From the NCBI GenBank assembly GCA_947853665.1, contig CANTXF010000048.1, forward strand, positions 1-51,980: a stretch of DNA of 51,980 bases, in the 5' to 3' direction. The stretch comes from an uncultured Deferribacterales bacterium. GTDB taxonomy: Bacteria; Chrysiogenota; Deferribacteres; Deferribacterales; Mucispirillaceae. A program made the position numbers and the translations under genes. Shown piece by piece: positions 1,785 through 45,242 of the stretch. Each line of letters starts with the position of its first letter. Position 1 is the first letter of the stretch. The notes beneath the pieces are model-generated. The model saw nothing but the letters and a program-made list of their open reading frames with translations. It was not told where the DNA came from and searched no databases.

Positions 1785-1841
1785 CGATATGCAAATATAT
1801 AATCATACCGGTACAGCAATAATATTATTTGGAGGGAGCCG

Positions 1842-4484
1842 ATGAATATTAAAAAATTTTTAGAACGGGGGGCTCTTTCGAGGCGTAATTTGTTGAAAAG
1901 CTTCGGGGGGGGGATAGCTGTCGCTGCTTTTCCCGGTTGCAGCAAAGATGACGATGGAGACGCGCTTATTTTCGAAACAGCCGATTCGAACCCGCCTTCC
2001 GTTCTGCCTGAAAAGACCTTTAAGGGCGCTTGCAGGCCTAATTGCTGGAACTCCTGTATGCTGGATGTTACTGTCAGGGGCGATAAGGTTGTCAGAACAA
2101 AGAGAGCCAGGCTTGGAACGGATGAAACCGGGTTGAACGGTCTCAATGAGGAAGGTTATTACGACAGGATATGTCTGCGGGGCTTGTCTCATGTGCAGAG
2201 GATGTATAGCCCGGATAGAGTATATTATCCGCTTAAACGTATGGATGACCGTGAAAGGGGAGATCTTAACGGCTTTAAGCGGATATCATGGCAGGAGGCA
2301 ATGAATACCATATCCGGTAAATTTCATGAAATAATTTCGGCTTACGGCAGTCGGGCCGTGGCTTTTATTACCGGCTCCCAGGCATACGGTGAAACTACCG
2401 GCGTAGGGCCTTACGGCAGGCTTGCGTCCTCGCTTAATGCTTCGAGCATAGCGTCAAACGTAGATATGGCTCTTACTCTCGGGCTTCATAGGGTATTCGG
2501 CCCGGATAGGTTTCCGTTTTTCGATTCCAACGAGCTTTCCGATATGCCTAACGCGCAGACTATATTTGTATGGGGTTCAAATATTTCTGAAACTCAGGTT
2601 CAGTCATGGCATTTTCTCGCCGATGCCCTTGACGAGGATAAACGTCGTAAAATAGGCAAAACCGGAAGGGCGACAATGGTCGCCATAGACCCTATGTTTA
2701 CCGTAGCCGCTTCAAAAGCGGATTATTACGTTTCTCCCAGGCCAGGTTCCGATACGGTTATCGTTCTTGCCATGCTTCGGGAGATAATGCATGTCCGCCG
2801 GGAATGGACGGATTGGGAGTATCTCTTTAACGATACGGTAGCGCCATTTCTCATAAGGGAAGATACGAAAGATTTTCTTAAGCAGTCCGATATAACCGGC
2901 TCAGATTCCGATAACGGCTATGTTGGCCTTACAATTGACGGTTCTTTTAGTTATACGTCTCCGAATGAAAAAGGCAAACCGGTGTTTTCCGGCACATATT
3001 CCGATTATGATCAGGAAGGGGATAATATATCCGTTAGTCTTGCGAACGGCGGGGCCGTTAATGTTTCCACAGCATATGCGCTGCTGAAAAATCATGTGGC
3101 GGAATGGACTTACGATAAATGTATGGAGTACGCCAACGTTAACGAGGAAACACTTAAAAAGCTTACGGAGCTTTTCGCGGCTCCCGAAAACAAGCCTGTA
3201 ACCGTATATCCCGGTTTCGGCACAGATCACTACAGCAACGGCCATCATTTTGCCCACGCTCTTGCTACGCTGTCCTGCATTACAGGCAACGTGGGCAAAC
3301 CTGGTGCGTCCTGCGGTCTTTTTATTCCGTTCGGTTTTGTTTTGAATACCGTTCCTCTTGCGAGCGGCGGTGCGTCTTCAAATATCCCTTATCTCCAATG
3401 GCGGGATGTTATGGATACGGGAAAATTCCGCGGCGAGGATTATCCCATAAAGGGCCTCTGGATGGCTGGCGGCAATCAGATAAGCAATATGGGCGATCAG
3501 AAGCAGAATTTTATCGACGGAATAATCCCTAAGCTGGATTTTATAGTATGTTCCGAAGTGGTAATGACGGATTCCGCCAGATACGCCGATATAATTCTTC
3601 CAGCCGCCTACTGGTTCGAGGCTCCCGATATCGTTGCTAAAGCCAACCACCCCTTTGCCGTTATTAACGAGAAAGCCGTAGAGCCTGTCGGAGGAGCGGT
3701 AAGCGACTGGAAAATAACCCAGCTTTTTGCCCAGGCTATGGATAAAAACGGAGCTTATAACATTTACAGGGATTTTGCGTATACGGAAGAAGAATATCTG
3801 GCAGAGCGTCTTAAGGGATCTGTGGACTATAAAGGGGACCCTATCACTTACGAGCGCCTTAAAGAAGAAAAATCAATAAGGTATCTCAGCAATCTTGCTA
3901 AAAACGGGCCCTTTATTTTCGGGGAGGACGGTATCTATAAAGGCAACGCCACAATGAGGGCCGAGTTTTATGCCAATAATATGAATTTAATGATGCTTAC
4001 CCTTTATTATATGAACCTCGGCAGGGATTTTACCGAGGAGGAACGGGCCTTTGAACGTCTGCCAAGCTGGGAAAAACCCATAGAGGCCTGGGACGGCCCG
4101 GGAAAGGACGACGCTCTTACGGCAAAATATCCTCTTGCTTACCAGCAGGAGCATACCAGATGGCGCGTTCATTCCCAATGGTTTCACGTGGAGTGGCTTA
4201 TGGAGCTTGCAGGCGAGCCTTTCGTTATGATTAATCCGCAGGACGCCGGGGATATTAAAACCGGCGATATGGTAAAAGTTTATAACGACCGCGGTTACGC
4301 TCTTGTTAAAGCCAGAGTTACGGAAAAAATGAGGCCGGGCCAGGTCAGCATACCCAAAGGGTACCAGCGAAGCCAGTTTAAAGGCGGCGGGTATCAGGAG
4401 CTCACAACCGTTAAATATCACCCGGCAGCAGTGAACCAGGCTTTCTATGACGCGCGGGTAAAAATTGAAAAAGCTGATATATAG
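1842..4484 (+). CDS. Exported molybdopterin oxidoreductase, catalytic subunit (DMSO reductase family)
   Basis: The 880-residue protein starts with a twin-arginine signal (SRRNLLKSFGGG) ending in FPGC-SKDD, which resembles a lipobox, so it is probably a TAT-exported lipoprotein. A [4Fe-4S] motif C-x3-C-x3-C with a fourth Cys in RICLRGL follows at about residues 63-110, then the molybdopterin domains and a C-terminal dinucleotide-binding domain (about 755-880). The family reduces or hydroxylates small molecules using the bis-MGD cofactor; the N-terminal region looks DmsA-like but the substrate is not predictable. The Fe-S subunit gene begins 12 bases downstream. No membrane anchor gene of the DmsC or NrfD type follows. 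GGAGGGAGCC precedes the ATG. Confidence 0.88.
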   Translation: MNIKKFLERGALSRRNLLKSFGGGIAVAAFPGCSKDDDGDALIFETADSNPPSVLPEKTFKGACRPNCWNSCMLDVTVRGDKVVRTKRARLGTDETGLNGLNEEGYYDRICLRGLSHVQRMYSPDRVYYPLKRMDDRERGDLNGFKRISWQEAMNTISGKFHEIISAYGSRAVAFITGSQAYGETTGVGPYGRLASSLNASSIASNVDMALTLGLHRVFGPDRFPFFDSNELSDMPNAQTIFVWGSNISETQVQSWHFLADALDEDKRRKIGKTGRATMVAIDPMFTVAASKADYYVSPRPGSDTVIVLAMLREIMHVRREWTDWEYLFNDTVAPFLIREDTKDFLKQSDITGSDSDNGYVGLTIDGSFSYTSPNEKGKPVFSGTYSDYDQEGDNISVSLANGGAVNVSTAYALLKNHVAEWTYDKCMEYANVNEETLKKLTELFAAPENKPVTVYPGFGTDHYSNGHHFAHALATLSCITGNVGKPGASCGLFIPFGFVLNTVPLASGGASSNIPYLQWRDVMDTGKFRGEDYPIKGLWMAGGNQISNMGDQKQNFIDGIIPKLDFIVCSEVVMTDSARYADIILPAAYWFEAPDIVAKANHPFAVINEKAVEPVGGAVSDWKITQLFAQAMDKNGAYNIYRDFAYTEEEYLAERLKGSVDYKGDPITYERLKEEKSIRYLSNLAKNGPFIFGEDGIYKGNATMRAEFYANNMNLMMLTLYYMNLGRDFTEEERAFERLPSWEKPIEAWDGPGKDDALTAKYPLAYQQEHTRWRVHSQWFHVEWLMELAGEPFVMINPQDAGDIKTGDMVKVYNDRGYALVKARVTEKMRPGQVSIPKGYQRSQFKGGGYQELTTVKYHPAAVNQAFYDARVKIEKADI

Positions 4485-5346: not shown

Positions 5347-6039
5347 TTATTTTTTTATCATAGTCACCGACATATATACGTTTTCAGTATCGGGGAACCC
5401 TTTAGTAAGGTCGAATGTCCGCTGATTATCCATATAAGCGTTCAAAACCATAAATGCCGCGGACGGGTTATATTCCGCTAAATATTCTTTCAGTACCTTT
5501 CCCTTATCCTGAATTTTCATTATAAGCACTGTGTTGAACATGCTGGCGTACCTGTCGATTTCTTCCGCTTTTTCCGGCATACATATAACGCAGAAACCTT
5601 CTTTCCAATCGGCGACAGCTATCCCCGCCAGAGCTGCCGGAGCCATAAAAGACGATACTCCGGGCACGGCTTCTAGGGTTATGCCTCTTTCTCTGAAAAT
5701 CTTAAATAAAGCGCCGTAAGAGGTAAATACCGTTATATCTCCGAAGCCGGCATACGCCACCTTTTTACCCTGATTTAAAAAATCCTCGGCCGCCCGGACG
5801 ATTTTGAGATTAAATTCGGCGTGGGCTTTTTCGCCTGAATTTTCCGGAATTTCAAAGGATTTCAGCTTATGGCCGCAGTTTATTTTTTCCAATATGCTCC
5901 TGGAATCCGCTTCTCCGCCGTAGCCTCCCACTCCGGACGTAATTATTATATCCGCACTGTTCAGGATTTCAGCGGCTTTTATCGTCATATACTCGTAATT
6001 TCCCGGGCCCAGACTAACTGCGTAAATTACTTTTTTCAT
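5347..6039 (-). CDS. Tetrapyrrole methylase, CobI/CbiL-like (precorrin-2 C20-methyltransferase type)
   Basis: The 230-residue protein has the SAM-binding start VSLGPGNYEYMTIKAAE, then GFGDITVFTSYG and EAVPGVSSFMAPAAL, which match the GDP and PGxSS motifs of precorrin methyltransferases, most like CobI/CbiL. No other cobalamin gene is nearby. The gene instead diverges from modABC, and its promoter carries a ModE-type operator, so molybdate-linked regulation is inferred. ATG 6039 is preferred because GGAAAG lies about 8 bases before it; an in-frame GTG at 6045 is too close to that site. It may act on a tetrapyrrole other than precorrin-2. Confidence 0.75.
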   Translation of the reverse strand: MKKVIYAVSLGPGNYEYMTIKAAEILNSADIIITSGVGGYGGEADSRSILEKINCGHKLKSFEIPENSGEKAHAEFNLKIVRAAEDFLNQGKKVAYAGFGDITVFTSYGALFKIFRERGITLEAVPGVSSFMAPAALAGIAVADWKEGFCVICMPEKAEEIDRYASMFNTVLIMKIQDKGKVLKEYLAEYNPSAAFMVLNAYMDNQRTFDLTKGFPDTENVYMSVTMIKK

Positions 6040-6087
6040 AGACACTTTCCGTTATATGTGATAAAAATAAAACGTTTCTGATAGAGG

Positions 6088-6169
6088 CCCGCTCCCTCCG
6101 CCCCTGCGTATGGGAACAGGGGCGGAAGCAAGCAGCGATTTTGAAGGAGGTACCGGATGGGAGCCGGTA
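6088..6169 (-). ncRNA. Structured 5' leader of the tetrapyrrole methylase mRNA (riboswitch-like)
   Basis: On the minus strand the predicted transcript opens with a hairpin (TACCGG, 7-base loop, CCGGTA; 6151-6169) and then a 9-bp hairpin (CCGCCCCTG with CAGGGGCGG; 6098-6125). A third, competing pairing is possible between 6159-6167 (CCGGCTCCC) and 6088-6096 (GGGAGCGGG), with one mismatch. Both hairpin loops contain CCCAT. Mutually exclusive pairing suits a regulatory leader. I could not match it to a known riboswitch class. Confidence 0.4.
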
Positions 6170-6173
6170 AATA

Positions 6174-6203
6174 CGTTATATATTATTATGAATAACGTGT
6201 CAA
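6174..6203 (-). promoter_or_regulatory. Methylase promoter overlapped by a ModE-type operator
   Basis: Read on the minus strand, TTGACA (6203-6198) is 17 bp from TATAAC (6180-6175). The space between and the -10 are filled by a 24-bp dyad, 6174-6197, with arms CGTTATAT and GAATAACG separated by 8 bases. This matches the known ModE operator form CGTTATAT-N4-12-ATATAACG, including the 8-8-8 layout of the Escherichia coli modA site. Repression by a molybdate-sensing ModE protein is inferred; no modE gene is in the window. Confidence 0.65.
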
Positions 6204-6221
6204 TAGATTTTATCAAATTTA

Positions 6222-6251
6222 TTGACATTTTATGTTTTAATTTATATAACG
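6222..6251 (+). promoter_or_regulatory. modABC promoter with a ModE half-site on the -10
   Basis: TTGACA (6222-6227) is exactly 17 bp from TATAAC (6245-6250), the same hexamers and spacing as the divergent methylase promoter. The -10 forms the half-site ATATAACG (6244-6251). The opposite arm of a dyad is degenerate (TTTTATGT). Joint control of both promoters by molybdate is inferred. Confidence 0.7.
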
Positions 6252-6292: not shown

Positions 6293-7054
6293 ATGAAGAA
6301 ATTTATCGTTTCTTTTTTTTGTATTTTGGCCGTTGCCGTTTCTCCAGCCGCTTTTGCGGCTGAAAAAGTAATGGTATTTGCCGCCGCGTCCACGACCAAC
6401 GTGATGGACGAGGTTCTTGCCATTTATAATAAGCAGGGCGGGAACGCCTCCGGTTCTTACGACAGCTCCGGCAATTTGGCCAGGCAGATAAAAGCCGGCG
6501 CTCCGGCCGCTATTTTCATATCAGCGGACCAGAAGTGGATGAACGAGCTTGAAAATGAAAAGCTGATAGAACCTGGAACGCGCGTAAATCTTCTGGGCAA
6601 CTCTATCGTGCTCATAGCCAGGGCCGACAGCAAGCTGCCTGAAATAGACCTTTCTAAAAAACCTGACCTTGCCAAAATGCTGGGAGATGGCAGGCTTGCG
6701 ATAGGCAATCCGGAAAGCGTGCCTAACGGTACCTATGCCAAAGAAGGCTTTATAAAACTCGGCCTTTGGGACAGCATTAAAGACCATCTTGCCATGGCTC
6801 AGAATGTTCGCGTTGCACTTTCTTATGTTTCTATGGGAGAAACTCCCCTCGGAGTCGTTTTCGGTACGGATGCGGCCGCGGATAAAAACGTAAAAGTTCT
6901 TTCCGTTTTTCCGGCCGGAAGCCATGCCGACGTAAGCTATCCGTCGGCGATAGTCAAGGGCAAGGCTTCTCCGGAAGTGAAAAAGCTTTACGAATTTTTA
7001 CAGAGCCCGGAGGCCAAAGCCGTTTATAAGAAATACGGGTTTTCGGTAAATTAG
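6293..7054 (+). CDS. modA: Molybdate ABC transporter, periplasmic binding protein
   Basis: The 253-residue protein has a Sec signal peptide ending near AAFA-AEK and the ModA start VFAAASTTNVMDEV. SYDSSGNLARQI carries the Ser that binds the oxyanion, and the protein ends in a typical YKKYGFSV segment. It captures molybdate (or tungstate) for ModBC. GGAAGGTGAG precedes the ATG. It is the first gene of a tight modABC operon that would supply the molybdopterin reductases in this window. Confidence 0.95.
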   Translation: MKKFIVSFFCILAVAVSPAAFAAEKVMVFAAASTTNVMDEVLAIYNKQGGNASGSYDSSGNLARQIKAGAPAAIFISADQKWMNELENEKLIEPGTRVNLLGNSIVLIARADSKLPEIDLSKKPDLAKMLGDGRLAIGNPESVPNGTYAKEGFIKLGLWDSIKDHLAMAQNVRVALSYVSMGETPLGVVFGTDAAADKNVKVLSVFPAGSHADVSYPSAIVKGKASPEVKKLYEFLQSPEAKAVYKKYGFSVN

Positions 7055-7068
7055 GCCGATATCCTAAA

Positions 7069-7767
7069 ATGGAGTGGTTCTCTCTTGCTCCCGCTGAAAT
7101 AGAAGCCATAAAATTAAGCCTGCTGGTAGGTTTTTGGTCGGTAACGGCCAGTCTGCCGGCAGGCATATTTTTTGGCTGGCTGCTGGCGAGAAAAGATTTT
7201 TACGGCAAGTCCCTTCTCGACGGTATTCTTCATTTGCCTCTCGTTATACCCCCTGTTGTTACCGGTTTTATACTGCTTATTCTTTTCGGCAAGAGGGGTA
7301 TTATCGGAGCCTGGCTCGAACAGGTTTTCGGGTTTACTTTCGCTTTTAACTGGAAGGGCGCGGCTCTTGCAAGCGCCATAATGTCATTTCCTCTTATGGT
7401 CCGCGCTGTGCGTCTTTCCGTAGAAGGCATAGATACCGGGTTGGAGCAGGCTGCGAAAACGCTTGGCAGATCTCCCGCGGGGGTATTTTTCAGCATAACG
7501 CTGCCGTTGGCTGTCCCCGGTATTATCGCAGGCATAGTTTTGGCGTTTGCCAGAAGCTTGGGCGAGTTCGGTGCGACCATTACTTTCGTATCCAATATCC
7601 CAGGCGAGACCCGCACGCTTCCCATAGCTCTCTATTCACTGCTTCAGATTCCCGGAGGAGAGCCCGCCGCCGCGAAGCTTTGCGTTATATCCATAATTTT
7701 AGCTTTCGGAGCTCTTATAGTGTCGGAATATTTTGCGAAGCGTTCCAGGAAAACCAGGGAAAAATAA
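7069..7767 (+). CDS. modB: Molybdate ABC transporter, permease
   Basis: The 232-residue protein is an inner-membrane permease with about five to six membrane segments. The ABC-contact loop EAAKTLG-type motif is present as EQAAKTLGRSPAGVFFSITLPLAVPGI. The N-terminus MEWFSLAPAEIEAIKLSL matches ModB. There is no clear Shine-Dalgarno site before ATG 7069, so translation probably couples to modA, whose stop lies 14 bases upstream. modC starts immediately after its stop codon. Confidence 0.95.
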   Translation: MEWFSLAPAEIEAIKLSLLVGFWSVTASLPAGIFFGWLLARKDFYGKSLLDGILHLPLVIPPVVTGFILLILFGKRGIIGAWLEQVFGFTFAFNWKGAALASAIMSFPLMVRAVRLSVEGIDTGLEQAAKTLGRSPAGVFFSITLPLAVPGIIAGIVLAFARSLGEFGATITFVSNIPGETRTLPIALYSLLQIPGGEPAAAKLCVISIILAFGALIVSEYFAKRSRKTREK

Positions 7768-8862
7768 ATGCTCGAACTTAATATTAAAAAAAAATTGGGC
7801 GACGTTAATATAGACGTGGCTTTTTCTGCCGGAGCAAAGGGCGTTACCGCCGTTTTCGGCCAGTCCGGAGCCGGAAAAACGAGCGTGATAAATATGATAG
7901 CGGGGTTAATAACGCCCGATGAAGGGTTTATACGCTTTAACGGAAAGCCGCTTTTCGACGCGTCTCAAAAGATAAACGTTCCCGTACATAAAAGGGCGGT
8001 AGGGTATGTTTTTCAGGATGCGCGCCTTTTTCCCAACATGAACGTAAAAAGAAACCTTATGTACGGCTCCGGCAGGAGTTCCGGCCATGCCATAGCTCAC
8101 GGAATGGACGACGTCTGCTCTCTTCTTGGAATAGGGCATCTTCTTGACAGAATGCCGTCCCGCCTTTCCGGAGGGGAGAAACAGCGCGTAGCCATAGGCA
8201 GAGCGCTGCTCTCCAATCCTGATATGCTTCTTATGGACGAGCCTCTCGCTTCTCTCGACAGAAACAGGAGGCATGAGCTTCTGGACTATATCAGCGTCGT
8301 TTCACGGGATTTCGACATACCTATCATATACGTTACCCATGCGGTTGAGGAAATAGTAAAGCTGGCCGGTAATATGGCTCTTATGGAAAACGGCAGGCTT
8401 AAAAAATTCGGCGGCGCCGTAGATATTCTTAACGACCTTAATATATCTTCCGGGTATGAAGGCAGGGATTTCGGCGTTATATGCGAAGGCAGTGTAACAT
8501 CCTACAATCCGGAAACGGAGCTTGCCGTTATATCTTTTGGCGGAGGCAGCGTCGAAGTATCGTCCGCGCCGGTGGAGCCGGGCTCTGGCGTGCGTTTTAA
8601 GATAAACGCCATAGACGTTGTTTTATGCGCTTCAAAGCCGCCTGCGACAAGCGTGCGCAATATATATTCCGGCCCGATTCTTGATGTGGTGGAAAGAAGC
8701 AATCATTTTTCCGACGTTCTTATGGATATCGGAGTTCCTTTATGGGCGCGGGTATCCGGCCAGTCTTTAAGGGATTTGTCCATTAAAAGGGGTAAAAATA
8801 TTTACGCTCTTGTCAAAAGCGCGGTAATATCCGCCGGAATGGTGATAAATCCGCCGGAGTAA
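7768..8862 (+). CDS. modC: Molybdate ABC transporter, ATPase
   Basis: The 364-residue protein has Walker A GQSGAGKTS, the Q-loop VFQDARLFP, the signature LSGGEKQRVAIGRALL and Walker B LLMDEP followed by the H-loop TH. A C-terminal regulatory region of about 130 residues resembles the TOBE/Mop domain of ModC proteins. It powers molybdate import through ModB. Its ATG directly follows the modB TAA. No strong terminator was seen after it. Confidence 0.95.
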   Translation: MLELNIKKKLGDVNIDVAFSAGAKGVTAVFGQSGAGKTSVINMIAGLITPDEGFIRFNGKPLFDASQKINVPVHKRAVGYVFQDARLFPNMNVKRNLMYGSGRSSGHAIAHGMDDVCSLLGIGHLLDRMPSRLSGGEKQRVAIGRALLSNPDMLLMDEPLASLDRNRRHELLDYISVVSRDFDIPIIYVTHAVEEIVKLAGNMALMENGRLKKFGGAVDILNDLNISSGYEGRDFGVICEGSVTSYNPETELAVISFGGGSVEVSSAPVEPGSGVRFKINAIDVVLCASKPPATSVRNIYSGPILDVVERSNHFSDVLMDIGVPLWARVSGQSLRDLSIKRGKNIYALVKSAVISAGMVINPPE

Positions 8863-9243: not shown

Positions 9244-10332
9244 ATGAGTTACAATGCCAGAGCCAGCATAGAAGAAGCTTTAGACATAATAAAAAACGGC
9301 GGCATGGTCATACTGTGCGACGATGAGGACAGGGAAAACGAAGGCGACCTTGTTATTGCCTCCCAATTCGTTACGCCTGAAAAGATAAATTTTATGGCAA
9401 AGTACGGGCGGGGCCTTATATGCCTTGCCCTTACTCCTGAAAGGTGCGATAAACTCAATCTTCCTCAGATGACGGGAGATAACGGGTGCCGTTTCGGCAC
9501 AGCGTTTACCGTTTCCATAGAAGCCAAAGATGGCGTTACCACCGGTATATCGGCCTATGACAGAGCGAAAACGATAAAGGCCGCGGTTGACCCGGAAGCT
9601 TCCGCTTCGGATTTTGCAAGGCCCGGGCATGTTTTTCCGTTAAGGGCTAGGGAAGGGGGCGTTTTGGCGAGAGAGGGCCAGACGGAAGGTTCCGTGGATC
9701 TTGCAAGGCTTGCCGGGCTTTATCCTTCCGGCGTAATATGCGAAATAATGGACGACGACGGCAGTATGGCCCGTATGCCGGCTCTTGAAAAATTTGCGGA
9801 AAAGCACGGGTTAAAAATCGTTACCGTTGCCGATTTGATAAAATACCGCCTTGAGCATGAAGATATTGCGGAAAAAACTGAAACGGCGAAAATGCCTACC
9901 GCTTACGGCGAATTTACCATTACCGGATTCCTTAATAAGGCGGACGGCAGGGAAGCCGCCGCTTTGGTCAAGGGAGATATTTCCGGGGACGAACCGGTGC
10001 TTGTACGCGTCCATTCCCAGTGCCTTACGGGGGACGTTTTCGCTTCCGGCCTGTGCGATTGCGCTGAAAAGCTGCATAGCGCTATGAAAAAAATAGAGGA
10101 AGCGGGCAGGGGCGTTGTTCTTTATCTTTATCAGGATACTAGCAAAGCCGGTTTTTTAAGCACTCCGGAAGGCAATATAAACCCCCACGAACACAGGGAA
10201 AGGCGGCTCAAGGACTACGGCTTCGGCGCCGTTGTGCTTAAAAAGCTTGGGTTAAGCAAAATAAGACTGCTTACCGACAGTCCTAAAATAATGAAGTGTA
10301 TTTCGGCCTACGGGCTTGAAATAGTGGAATAA
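9244..10332 (+). CDS. ribBA: RibBA-type riboflavin protein with intact DHBP synthase and degenerate GTP cyclohydrolase II half
   Basis: Residues 1-200 match 3,4-dihydroxy-2-butanone-4-phosphate synthase, with the acidic motif DDEDRENEGDL and RPGHVFPLRA. Residues about 215-362 match GTP cyclohydrolase II: zinc ligands HSQC...CDC are kept. However, the EGRGIGL stretch reads DTSKAGF, the following segment is shortened, and the catalytic DxR before the DYG motif reads RLK. At 362 residues the protein is shorter than the usual 400. RibB activity is expected; RibA activity is doubtful. No other riboflavin gene is nearby and another GTP cyclohydrolase should exist elsewhere. Confidence 0.88.
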   Translation: MSYNARASIEEALDIIKNGGMVILCDDEDRENEGDLVIASQFVTPEKINFMAKYGRGLICLALTPERCDKLNLPQMTGDNGCRFGTAFTVSIEAKDGVTTGISAYDRAKTIKAAVDPEASASDFARPGHVFPLRAREGGVLAREGQTEGSVDLARLAGLYPSGVICEIMDDDGSMARMPALEKFAEKHGLKIVTVADLIKYRLEHEDIAEKTETAKMPTAYGEFTITGFLNKADGREAAALVKGDISGDEPVLVRVHSQCLTGDVFASGLCDCAEKLHSAMKKIEEAGRGVVLYLYQDTSKAGFLSTPEGNINPHEHRERRLKDYGFGAVVLKKLGLSKIRLLTDSPKIMKCISAYGLEIVE

Positions 10333-11088: not shown

Positions 11089-12486
11089 ATGTTACACTTA
11101 AAAAAATCTATCAGGTACAACCTTAAAGATCAGCCTTACGGTTCCGAAGGAACGTCCGCCCCTCTCCCGAAATTTAAAATGCCTCAGGAGGAAATGACGG
11201 CGCAGGATGCGTATATAGGCGTTCATAACGAGCTGGTTCTGGACGGCAACGCTTCGCAGAACCTTGCCACCTTTGTCCAGACATGGGAAGAACCGCAGGT
11301 TCATAAGCTTATGGACGAATGTATAATAAAAAATATGATAGATAAGGACGAATACCCGCAGACGGCGGCTCTTGAGGAACGCTGCGTTCATATGATAGCG
11401 GATCTCTGGAACTCGCCTGAAGCCGCGAATACTCTGGGCACTTCCACCACCGGCTCTTCGGAAGCGGCTATGCTGGGCGGTCTTGCAATGCTCTGGAACT
11501 GGCGGGCGAAAATGAAAGCCAAAGGCAAACCGGCCGATAAGCCTAATATGGTTACCGGGGCCGTGCAGGTATGCTGGGAAAAATTCGCGCGCTACTGGGA
11601 TATAGAGCTGCGCCAGATTCCCATGGAAAAAAATCAATATACGATAACCCCCGAAAAGGTTCTTCAGTACGTCGACGAAAACACTATATGCGTAGTGCCT
11701 ACTCTGGGGCTTACTTTTACTCTGCAATACGAGCCTGTGGAGGCTATCGTCAAAGCGCTTGATAAGCTTCAGGCGGAAAAGGGCCTTGATATACCTGTCC
11801 ATGTGGACGGCGCCAGCGGAGGTTTTCTCGCTCCGTTTATAGAGGAGCAGAAAAACCTGGTATGGGATTTCAGGCTTCCGAGGGTAAAATCCATAAACGC
11901 GTCGGGCCATAAATTCGGCCTTGCTCCCGTCGGGGTAGGCTGGGTCGTATGGAGAGATAAAGCCGACCTTCCCGAAGGGCTGATATTTAACGTAAACTAT
12001 CTTGGCGGAAATATGCCTACCTTCAATCTTAATTTTTCCCGCCCAGGCGGGCAGATAGTAGCTCAGTATTACGATTTTATCCGTCTCGGCAAAAACGGTT
12101 ATTCCAAAATACAGAACGCTTCCTCCAAAACAGGCCGGTGGCTTGCCAAGCAGATTGTGGACATGGGATTATTTGAAATGCTTTATGACGGAAACGGCGG
12201 GATTCCGGGCTGCACATGGCGTTTTAAGGACGGAGTCAAAGCCGGATATTCCCTTTACGATCTCGCGGACAGGCTCCGTTCCAGAGGCTGGCTCGTGCCC
12301 GCTTATTCTCTGCCTTCTAACGCTCAGGATATAGTTGTGCAGCGCGTTCTCGTAAAGCAAAACTTTACTATGGATATGGCTTCCCTCCTTGTGGACGATA
12401 TTAAACGCTGCATAGATTATTTTGACAAGCATCCCGTAAGCAAGCCCCTTACCGAGCAGGAAGCCGGTTCTTTCAAACACAGCTGA
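11089..12486 (+). CDS. gadB: Glutamate decarboxylase
   Basis: The 465-residue length equals the bacterial GadB family (466 in Escherichia coli). The PLP lysine is Lys275 in SGHKFGL, with [14 protein letters not shown] and HVDGASGGF as substrate and cofactor motifs. The protein ends SFKHS, keeping the penultimate histidine that closes the active site at neutral pH in E. coli GadB. It converts glutamate to GABA, consuming a cytoplasmic proton. A strong site AGGAGG precedes the ATG. gadC follows about 100 bases later. Confidence 0.97.
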
Positions 12487-12519
12487 TATACGCGGAAGCT
12501 TTATACTCCGATTTTATAG

Positions 12520-12566
12520 CCGGGAGCGCGCGCTCCCGGGATTTTTATGCCGTCCGCATAGGACGG
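12520..12566 (+). terminator. Two hairpins between gadB and gadC
   Basis: A perfect 10-bp stem CCGGGAGCGC/GCGCTCCCGG (12520-12539) is followed by ATTTTTA. A second stem CCGTCC/GGACGG (12550-12566) lies before the gadC ribosome site. The first has the look of a leaky terminator or mRNA-stabilising element that would lower gadC relative to gadB. The immediate tetraloop-less centre means the inner base pairs open into a loop. Confidence 0.55.
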
Positions 12567-12585
12567 ATATCAAAGGTAGGTACTT

Positions 12586-14049
12586 ATGGCTACATCATCA
12601 AATAAGACGCTGAGCGTGTTCACTCTCGCCATGATAAACGTGGCGGCAATAGTGAGCCTGCGCGGATTGCCTGCGGAGGCGGTTTACGGCTTATCGTCGA
12701 TATTTTATTACGTTTTTGCCGCGGTATGTTTTCTTATACCGGTTTCTTTGGTCGCAGCGGAGCTTGGCACCGGCTGGCCCCAGAAAGGCGGCGTTTTCCG
12801 CTGGGTAGGGGAGGCATTCGGTCCCGGATGGGGATTTCTCGCTATATTTCTCCAGTGGATACAGAATACCATCTGGTTTCCCACGGTTCTGACTTTTGCA
12901 GCCGTTTCACTGGCGTTTATAGGAGTCGACAAAAGCTTCGACGTGGCTCTTTCCGGAAATAAATACTATACGCTTGCGATAGTTTTGCTCGTATACTGGG
13001 GCGCCACCATAATGAATTTTTACGGCGTCAAGCTTTCCGGCGCCATAAGCAAGTGGGGCGTTATAGTCGGAACCCTTGTTCCCGGAGCGATAATAATAAT
13101 TTTGGGGTTTCTCTACTGGATAACCGGTAATCCCGTTCAGATGCCGCTGCATGCCGGGGATCTTATTCCAGACCTTACTCATTTCGATAATCTTGCTCTG
13201 GCTGTCAGCATATTTTTGTTTTACGCCGGTATGGAAATGTCCGCGGTGCACGTTACCGAGGTGAAAAACCCTCAGGTAAATTATCCGAAAGCTATTTTTA
13301 CTGCGGCTATAATCACCGTGGTGCTTTTTATACTGGGTACTCTGGCCATAGGCTTCGTTATTCCGGAACAGCAGATAAACCTTACCCAGAGCCTGCTTGT
13401 GGCTTATGACGACGTTTTCTCTATATTCCACCTGAAATTTCTAGGGAGCATAATAGCGGCGTTTCTCGCTTTCGGCGTTTTCGGTCAGGTTTCCACCTGG
13501 ATTGCCGGCCCGAGCAAGGGCCTTTTGGCTGTGGGAAGGGCGGGTTACCTCCCTGTATGGCTGCAAAAGCGCAATTCACACGGAGTGCAGGTGAATATAC
13601 TTATCGTGCAGGCCTGCATAGTAACGGTTCTTTCCGTTATGTTCGTTCTCTTGCCTTCCGTTCAGGCCGCTTATCAGATACTTACCGCCTTGTGCATAAC
13701 TCTGTATCTTATAATGTATATTATTATGTTCTGCGCGTTTATCAAGCTGCGTTTCAGCCAGCCGGACGTTAAAAGGACGTTTACCGTTCCGGGCGGCGAA
13801 GCCGGTATGTGGATAGTAGGCGGCCTTGGCTTTCTCGCGTCGCTGACGGCTTTTATTTTCGGCTTTCTCCCTCCTGGGCAGATCGCCGTAGGCAGCCCGG
13901 CTAAATGGATTATTCTGCTAGTATTTGGCAACGCCGTAGGTATAGCTATTCCTTTTATAATATACGCGCTGCGCAAGCCTTCGTGGAAATCCTCCGACCC
14001 GGACGACCAGTTCGAGCCTTTTTCATGGGAAAAGCAAAAGAGCAAATAA
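12586..14049 (+). CDS. gadC: Glutamate/GABA antiporter
   Basis: The 487-residue APC-superfamily transporter has about twelve membrane segments, with GadC-type sequence such as GLPAEAVYGLSSIFYY and GWPQKGGVFRWVGEAFG. It exchanges external glutamate for GABA from GadB, exporting a proton equivalent. After the last membrane helix only about 25 residues remain, shorter than the C-terminal plug of E. coli GadC (511 residues), so pH gating may differ. AAAGGTAGG precedes the ATG. A bidirectional terminator follows. Confidence 0.95.
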   Translation: MATSSNKTLSVFTLAMINVAAIVSLRGLPAEAVYGLSSIFYYVFAAVCFLIPVSLVAAELGTGWPQKGGVFRWVGEAFGPGWGFLAIFLQWIQNTIWFPTVLTFAAVSLAFIGVDKSFDVALSGNKYYTLAIVLLVYWGATIMNFYGVKLSGAISKWGVIVGTLVPGAIIIILGFLYWITGNPVQMPLHAGDLIPDLTHFDNLALAVSIFLFYAGMEMSAVHVTEVKNPQVNYPKAIFTAAIITVVLFILGTLAIGFVIPEQQINLTQSLLVAYDDVFSIFHLKFLGSIIAAFLAFGVFGQVSTWIAGPSKGLLAVGRAGYLPVWLQKRNSHGVQVNILIVQACIVTVLSVMFVLLPSVQAAYQILTALCITLYLIMYIIMFCAFIKLRFSQPDVKRTFTVPGGEAGMWIVGGLGFLASLTAFIFGFLPPGQIAVGSPAKWIILLVFGNAVGIAIPFIIYALRKPSWKSSDPDDQFEPFSWEKQKSK

Positions 14050-22600: not shown

Positions 22601-22970
22601 GCAGTCTGTCGGATTTATATATCTCGCTGCGTTTGCCCCTGCATTTGAGGCAGGCTCTTTTCTGAGGCTTTATTATTTCGTCCCCCGTTCCTTCCGGGGT
22701 TTCGTCGCTGGTAAAACGTTTTATTACACCGCCCGATATATGGGCGCGTATGATACATTTTCCGCCGCAGTTATTTCCCATTGTTCCGCTGACTATTTTT
22801 TCATCGGCGGGAATGGTAATGTCCAGATTCCCCCCCCCGGAATTTTCGAGATAAAGCACTTCGCCGTCGTCTTTACTGCATCCTGCAAGAGAGACCGCAG
22901 CCGCTGCCGCTCCGGCGGATTTCAGCAAACCCCGCCTTGACAGCACGATACTTTGTTTTAATTTTCCCAT
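19644..22970 (-). CDS. Large exported molybdopterin oxidoreductase, catalytic subunit
   Basis: The 1108-residue protein is longer than most of the DMSO reductase family (about 750-900). It has a TAT signal (LSRRGLLKSAGAAAAA) ending in the lipobox LAGC, so it is a probable TAT lipoprotein. The N-terminal Fe-S motif reads MGNNCGGKC ... RACLKC, with Met in place of the first Cys and an additional Cys near the fourth. The molybdopterin domains and a C-terminal MGD-binding domain follow. ATG 22970 is chosen because AAAGGAGG stands just before it; 14 extra upstream residues are not used. Its promoter faces the second MocR-like gene. Substrate unknown. Confidence 0.88.
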   Translation of the reverse strand: MGKLKQSIVLSRRGLLKSAGAAAAAVSLAGCSKDDGEVLYLENSGGGNLDITIPADEKIVSGTMGNNCGGKCIIRAHISGGVIKRFTSDETPEGTGDEIIKPQKRACLKCRGKRSEIYKSDRLLYPLRQDGERGDVNGFVRISWETAFKEIAEKLQASLNREYQGTDPYFNEPDKKSIYGKGTMFAPFGGGPTHALASYNFSSRLNKCVGGTIPTNMTAMSYPATNFVDKYTNNSTSMLIPGMYAIHNMLITEPNDRRDMFNCKHIVLWGFNPADSIMDTNTMYLLIQAKEKGIPITVIDPHVTRTSLTLGAKHLAPIGGTDSALVFAILYHLIKLQLKETNITNGRYLDFEFIKKSCHGFFDMPNPTTADFYIYKNFSENTGPGATNPEKYRVPAGASLSAYILGNEEDLITAGYNYAPSIYPETIGYNVNSAEESPDGEEDELYRKRVPVYGQAPKTPEWAEMITGVPAQDIKELAETLGTLKNVGIFTGWGSNRTVEGEQAPFAINSLAAVLGCWGDYGKFWGSTHMTMNNNAYFSKLPAFNTSTMSSSVTAQATAIENDIINYRRYNAKMSFPYVTPQNKSSQIAEWADMAANGGTGKSWWNDPQIKFCPPVRSFFIAGGDPVNQSGDNKRSMETMKDRSKIDLVVSMDIFMSPTAQYSDYVLPAAMPFEMESFTNGKSAFICVPKAVDAPGECMPDMHIIEGIAKNINPAYEKEICGLKTCGEIQKEAFETIKAESGTDMTFEEFKEKGYIDFARRNDETLNAVFKNFRTYLTSGGTDGTPLMTTSGKFEIYSQGMVEDYESRRWYNFDDDAARYGVPEADLELKHIGKTFRDGVQVEGIYTAACEYTNNKEDIPTNPGYDTFSLKQGTESEVKANMKKARFVYPIPMYIPLIEGCHACDGKTQGDYGSDYPSIENMRHPDPAGLKTEYPYLCGNHHSIHRAHTCGDNNSYATETYKLNGKGGQAFRSMNRGRNTITAGKGLMPAGELGVYEPLYISPEDADALSLKTGDTILVTSPRAAVLMCANVTNSTRKEITYMGEGAWSSFMDCAVTFPDGTRQVINADVAGSANSLATQRPSRICQASGYGSYQRIRIQKIASVELA

Positions 22971-22996
22971 TTTTTCCTCCTTTATCGGAATAATCA

Positions 22997-44868: not shown

Positions 44869-45078
44869 CTATTCCACGCCTACCATTACGGAAGTGGCCT
44901 TGATTACGGCTATCGCTGCGGAGCCCTCTTTAATGCCCAGCTCTTTAATGGCGTCCATAGAGATTGTGGCGCTTATTACGTTTCCTCCGCCTATGTCTAT
45001 TTTGACTATGGCGTTGACTGCGCCTTTCTCGATTGCCACTACTTTACCTTTAAGCTGATTTCTTGCGCTTAATTTCAT
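44869..45078 (-). CDS. Molbindin (single Mop-domain molybdate-binding protein)
   Basis: The 69-residue protein is one TOBE/Mop domain: SARNQLKGKVVAIEKGAVNAIVKIDIGG and ISMDAIKELGIKEGSAAIAVIKATSVMVGV. Such proteins assemble as hexamers that store or buffer molybdate in the cytoplasm. GGAGGCATTG lies before the ATG. It fits the molybdate demand of the reductases here, though it is 36 kb from modABC. Confidence 0.93.
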   Translation of the reverse strand: MKLSARNQLKGKVVAIEKGAVNAIVKIDIGGGNVISATISMDAIKELGIKEGSAAIAVIKATSVMVGVE

Positions 45079-45242
45079 TACAATGCCTCCATGTATTTAA
45101 CATACGCTTTATCTTATCATCGGTCCGGCCGTTGTCAATATCTTATAGGGCGTAAATATTATTTGATATAAAGCCGATTTAGGCTATTATTTTGCAGAGT
45201 GCAGAGCTCTTTTGAATATAATAATAGGTTGGTTTAATTAAA

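Follow-up and report, generated by a model that had tools for sequence, protein, structure and literature searches.

The promoter that diverges from modABC in this uncultured Deferribacterales bacterium is, with a probability that we put at about two in three, a ModE-repressed promoter of a trans-acting small RNA serving a molybdenum-sparing response. The elements that can be read from the DNA itself are a ModE-type dyad, the divergent promoters, a gene for ModE, conservation of the site, a hairpin-terminated RNA in relatives and complementarity to molybdoenzyme starts beyond that of control genes. With somewhat less assurance, yet still on the favorable side of even, we suggest that a dedicated small RNA beside modABC would give ModE control over a good part of the cell's many molybdopterin respiratory enzymes, through C-rich loops that pair with start codons.

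The stretch of DNA analyzed, referred to below as the window, is 51,980 nucleotides long and corresponds to contig C48 of a genome of 2.43 Mb (68 contigs, 97% complete). Its features are collected in Table 1. For comparison we refer to relatives of one genus (g3), probably Mucispirillum, eight of which carry the dyad upstream of modA. Downstream of modC, two further features were noted by eye, namely a ribB-like gene (9244-10332) and, beyond it, a glutamate-decarboxylase-like and amino-acid-antiporter-like pair (11089-14049).

Table 1. Positions, strands and supporting evidence of the features considered in the window.
Feature	Position	Strand	Basis
Predicted target site, ribosome-binding site GGAGGGAGCCGAUG of molybdopterin oxidoreductase gene 1842-4484	1831..1844	+	Duplex of -25.5 kcal/mol
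CobI/CbiL-like tetrapyrrole methylase	5347..6045	-	PF00590; TIGR01467 122.9 bits, below cut-off of 163.25
Predicted ModE-controlled non-coding RNA of about 80 nt, either a small RNA itself or a 5' leader yielding one	6088..6168	-	Fold and positional counterpart in relatives
3' hairpin CCGCCCCUG-UUCCCAUACG-CAGGGGCGG	6098..6125	-	Loop (loop 2) UUCCCAUACG at 6107-6116
Linker ACCUCCUUCAAAAUCGCUGCUUGCUU, mostly unpaired, anti-Shine-Dalgarno-like seed	6126..6151	-	3' end pairs in extended second stem
5' hairpin ACCGG-CUCCCAU-CCGGU	6152..6168	-	Folding; loop at 6157-6163
ModE-type dyad CGTTATAT-N8-GAATAACG, 24 bp, full sequence CGTTATATATTATTATGAATAACG	6174..6197	.	Overlaps leftward spacer and -10
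Leftward sigma70-type promoter	6175..6203	-	TTGACA 6203-6198, 17-nt spacer, TATAAC 6180-6175; same promoter in relatives
modA promoter TTGACA-N17-TATAACG	6222..6251	+	TTGACA 6222-6227, 17-nt spacer, TATAAC 6245-6250
ModE half-site ATATAACG within modA promoter	6244-6251	+	Sequence; TATATTACG half-site at same position in relatives
modA, molybdate-binding protein	6293..7054	+	TIGR01256 and NF007958 above cut-off
modB, molybdate permease	7069..7767	+	NF006939 above cut-off
modC, molybdate ATPase with TOBE domain	7768..8862	+	TIGR02142 above cut-off; PF03459
Predicted target site AAGGAGGAAAAAAUGGGAAAA, second molybdopterin oxidoreductase gene, start 22970	22962..22985	-	7-nt matches to linker and loop 2

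A ModE-type operator over the divergent promoters

The initial annotation described two promoters of the form TTGACA-N17-TATAACG, a 24-bp dyad that covers the spacer and -10 on the methylase side, and a half-site in the same position on the modA side. All three are present with the sequences and coordinates claimed (Table 1), and the leftward transcript would start near 6168. In a genome-wide pattern search, a dyad with intact arms (CGTTATAT-N6..10-WATAACG) occurs only once in 2.43 Mb and a reversed control pattern does not occur. When two mismatches were allowed, the search gave no information, as the reversed control pattern was then about as frequent or more so.

It should be noted that the dyad in the window matches ModE sites imperfectly, scoring 15 of 22 against the published 28-bp consensus (ATCGCTATATA-N6-TATATAACGAT; PMC2700814). 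In 0.31 Mb taken from elsewhere in the same genome, seven stretches score 16, and when the intergenic region was shuffled 2000 times, 69 of the shuffles reached 15, so that the score taken alone is unexceptional and would not convince. Stronger support for the ModE operator that had been proposed over the divergent promoter comes from the relatives and from the ModE protein. Orthologous dyads of near-perfect ModE type are found at the same place upstream of modA in eight relatives, most of them scoring 17-20 of 22, and the genome itself encodes ModE. The leftward promoter, with the dyad over its -10, is probably shut off by ModE.

The search for modE that the initial annotation had suggested revealed a full-length gene outside the window (C44:52047-52835), encoding 263 amino acids with a TIGR00637 score of 112.6 bits (cut-off 98.5). 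Residues 20-261 align with E. coli ModE structures (E 2e-34; 122 bits to 1b9m), and the protein has both the helix-turn-helix and the molybdenum-binding domains. An orthologue, 47-57% identical, is present in 10 of 10 g3 genomes examined. In genus g2, neither ModE nor the dyad was found, and modA differs. At Geovibrionaceae-like modA promoters ModE sites cover the -10, and no divergent hairpin RNA was seen.

Two side observations concern ModE-like sequences elsewhere. A 70-residue Mop/TOBE-like match to the C-terminal region of ModE lies on the minus strand of the window (44875-45084) and is perhaps a small molybdate-binding protein. In a relative, a molybdopterin-oxidoreductase gene whose G9 tract is out of frame is preceded at a short distance by a ModE-like dyad with one mismatch (G011:C1:20529-20552, locus L131).

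A predicted hairpin RNA in the window and in relatives

The RNA expected from the leftward promoter is 70-90 nt long, contains two hairpins and has no AUG. Its predicted fold has a z-score of -4.1 in the window, where none of 200 shuffles was as stable, and z-scores range from -3.4 to -4.3 over all examples tested. In eight g3 genomes the RNA would be about 85-90 nt long; its 5' stem varies and is followed by a linker CUUCCAAAUUUUGCUU, a hairpin (e.g., CCUCUACC-UUUCCUCCCAUUU-GGUAGAGG) and U-rich sequence, with metN as the next gene where the flank was read. The window RNA is more G+C-rich than these counterparts. By reading, the hairpin of the relatives resembles an intrinsic terminator, although a strict terminator scan listed none in the one relative scanned. 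One pair of a hairpin stem has changed from G-C to A-U with pairing kept, and a covariance model built from seven relatives finds the site in 8 of 8 genomes (E 1e-11 to 1e-17).

The relation of the window RNA to these RNAs has some weaknesses that need to be considered. The covariance model from the relatives does not recover the window RNA and yields only weak matches outside g3, and local alignment with the relatives is weak, being clearly above shuffles for two of them only. The equivalence of the window RNA thus rests mainly on position and anatomy. The hairpin in the window is not followed by a U-run, and no clear terminator was found between the RNA and the methylase gene; the RNA may therefore arise by processing of the methylase mRNA, or transcription may run on from it into the methylase gene. 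We also considered whether GGA loops on the opposite strand might act by CsrB-like titration, and rejected this, as no promoter is obvious on that strand and only on the minus strand does the hairpin end in a U-rich tail. A search for Hfq (PF17209) gave no match in the five genomes searched; Hfq is not a universal requirement, as seen for IsrR (PMC9410917) and HrrF (PMC4144887).

In g3, the divergent promoter, the dyad and the RNA hairpins stay beside modA, and the gene that they face is metN, a methionine-transporter gene, rather than the methylase. Where the flank was read, metN has promoter-like sequence of its own beyond the hairpin. These data bear on the possibility that the RNA is a cis-acting leader controlling the next gene (the methylase in the window, metN in the relatives), either as an attenuator or as a riboswitch that senses molybdate, Moco or some other ligand. 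In favor of such a leader is the hairpin, which is strong and conserved, has a terminator-like tail and lies immediately before a gene. We nonetheless regard this as improbable, given that the downstream genes differ and are unrelated, that metN has the promoter-like sequence mentioned, that the conserved parts are short C-rich loops and not a large ligand pocket, and that pairing with molybdoenzyme starts, described below, would be left unexplained. Rfam yielded no riboswitch match either; no family, the Moco riboswitch included, reaches its gathering score, and the three matches obtained are all far below it.

The methylase

The methylase beside modA had been taken as the target of the ModE operator. 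Its orthologues in g3 (40-46% identical) are found elsewhere, with a gene for a membrane protein and those of a polar-amino-acid ABC transporter as neighbors; at three loci (L038, L039 and L041) they lie directly upstream of the transporter permease and ATPase genes. No ModE-like site was found upstream of the orthologues in the g3 loci examined, and the methylase-modA pairing, which the initial annotation had suggested looking for, was seen in none of the relatives examined, where the dyad faces metN instead. Among the genomes examined, the position of the methylase beside modA is lineage-specific. As the relatives keep the dyad without the methylase, it is the dyad together with the divergent promoter and the adjoining downstream RNA that forms the conserved unit. 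The methylase does not belong to it, and its role as a conserved target of ModE is not supported.

These results also bear on a rival explanation, in which the leftward promoter is a ModE-controlled mRNA promoter that serves to express the methylase, with the hairpins as no more than an incidental 5' leader. In the window the methylase is indeed the next gene; it begins about 120 nt further on, and no obvious terminator intervenes. In the relatives, however, the two are separated: the dyad, promoter and hairpin RNA have no methylase beside them, the methylase has no ModE site, and the RNA stops before the next gene. We consider this explanation unlikely, if slightly less so than that of a cis-acting leader. 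As no clear terminator separates the RNA from the methylase in the window, read-through into the methylase, bringing some molybdate control, is possible, and a link of the methylase to molybdate would depend on this route only. No such link was found in the literature searched.

As for its function, the methylase is a divergent relative of CobI/CbiL; it fails the family cut-off, and its scores with other CobI/CbiL models are far below theirs. It is approximately 25-33% identical to CbiL-like genes of the order, one of which was read and lies among other cobalamin-type genes. A scan of genome contigs with the methylase gave one distant stretch only. The initial remark that no cobalamin genes lie nearby extends to the whole genome, where the three TP_methylase (PF00590) matches are the window methylase and two RsmI-like proteins. 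HemC is present. No SUMT/CysG-like enzyme that forms precorrin-2 was seen among the three PF00590 matches, and precorrin-2, which had been put forward for assay as a substrate, is thus an unlikely one.

Complementarity to molybdoenzyme translation starts

The genome contains 28 matches to PF00384, corresponding to about 26 molybdopterin-oxidoreductase genes. We compared their translation-initiation regions with those of 298 genes (a sample of about 300) from separate stretches of the same genome; it should be considered that the scan used predicted start codons, ignored mRNA structure and treated accessibility only roughly. Perfect complements of loop 2 of at least 7 nt were found in 14 of the 26 molybdopterin-enzyme genes and in 7 of the 298 controls (p 7e-13), and complements of at least 9 nt in 5 of 26 and 0 of 298, respectively. 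In two molybdoenzyme genes, the full 10-nt complement of the loop, CGUAUGGGAA, spans the start codon. The linker has complements of 8-11 nt in the ribosome-binding regions of six molybdoenzyme genes, as compared with 8 of 298 controls, and genes with no such match to loop 2 often match the linker instead, over up to 11 nt (TTTGAAGGAGG). For the 5' hairpin, GGGAGCCG at the ribosome-binding site of the gene starting at 1842 is an 8-nt perfect complement of CGGCUCCC in that hairpin.

These counts are not independent, as many of the targets are paralogues with a conserved ATGGGAAAA start. Such numbers are open to a reading in which ModE acts at the modABC promoter only, the leftward promoter and hairpins do not serve in regulation, and the matches arise from ordinary Shine-Dalgarno sequences and from the common ancestry of the paralogues. 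The targets do include a large paralogous family with near-identical starts, and the dyad score by itself, as stated above, is unexceptional. The enrichment, however, persists against Shine-Dalgarno-matched controls and shuffled RNAs and after families are collapsed. When the comparison is limited to genes with a strong Shine-Dalgarno sequence, molybdoenzymes have the stronger predicted duplexes (p 3e-4), and in this matched test only 1 of 200 shuffled RNAs, in which the anti-Shine-Dalgarno sequence was kept, separates the targets as well. With paralogues counted once, TGGGAG/ATGGGA, a motif chosen after inspection, occurs in 4 of 12 independent starts of the window genome against a control rate of 3% (p 8e-4). 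The same test in g3 gave 6 of 10 independent families and 5 of 350 controls, which came mostly from one genome (p 3e-8). In each of four species, duplexes with the species' own RNA are stronger for molybdoenzymes, and in each of two species among the relatives none of 120 shuffled RNAs did as well. In addition, conservation of the intergenic region among relatives is found in three blocks, namely the dyad, the promoter and the hairpin. We therefore hold this reading to be improbable, and the conserved seed shows complementarity to a coherent set of targets beyond chance.

Some other properties of the molybdopterin-oxidoreductase genes were observed. Many of the approximately 26 genes lie on short contigs, as if from a recent expansion of paralogues. 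Twelve contain tracts of 9-10 G in the 5' part of the coding sequence, after or within the TAT signal region (1905-1913 and about 22830-22838 in the window; L155, L156, L157, L158, L159, L161, L162, L163, L166 and L167 elsewhere); half of these 12 genes are in frame and the other six are not. Of seven such genes in two relatives, one is in frame (L114, L185, L186, L187, L131, L188 and L189). The tracts look like those of phase variation of respiratory reductases, and homopolymer sequencing error is possible in draft genomes.

Discussion

The preferred reading, of a small RNA repressed by ModE, can be phrased as follows for the window species, where ModE binding, transcription, action in trans and target repression are what we infer. 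When molybdate is sufficient, molybdenum-loaded ModE would sit on the dyad over the -10 and keep the RNA off; through the half-site modABC would be repressed too, more weakly than the RNA. When molybdate is scarce, ModE would be released, and modABC would be expressed together with the RNA, about 80 nt in length and C-rich in its loops and linker. This RNA would pair with the Shine-Dalgarno and start-codon regions of molybdopterin-enzyme mRNAs and block their translation, which may save the molybdenum cofactor for an essential few enzymes.

In its logic, the proposed system resembles IsrR, FsrA and RyhB, with no claim of a relation in sequence. In each case, a small RNA for metal starvation is repressed by a metal-sensing regulator and directs C-rich loops against the starts of metalloenzyme mRNAs, a repression and a pairing which here are predicted. 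For IsrR of Staphylococcus aureus, C-rich single-stranded loops pair with Shine-Dalgarno and start regions of targets that include nitrate reductase and formate dehydrogenase (PMC9410917). Here, in contrast, the regulator and metal are ModE and molybdenum, the targets would be molybdopterin enzymes, and the gene diverges from modABC. The E. coli and Geobacter ModE regulons (PMC2700814) share with the present system the ModE protein, a palindromic operator of 24-28 bp and modABC as a target; they differ in that the conserved second output here is a non-coding RNA and that the site lies over a divergent promoter. A small RNA that ties metal status to molybdate is also found in Haemophilus influenzae, where the Fur-controlled HrrF is stable without Hfq and lowers modABC itself (PMC4144887), whereas the window RNA would share its control with modABC and act to reduce the enzymes that consume molybdenum.

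No molybdenum-responsive small RNA was found in the literature searched. Iron-sparing small RNAs are known in several bacteria, and the finding, if true, would mean that such logic also exists for molybdenum, run by ModE rather than by Fur. Many enzymes would then be controlled by ModE from one operator, through specific pairings that are easily tested, in a group whose respiration relies on many molybdoenzymes and which, by inference, includes the common mouse-gut genus Mucispirillum.
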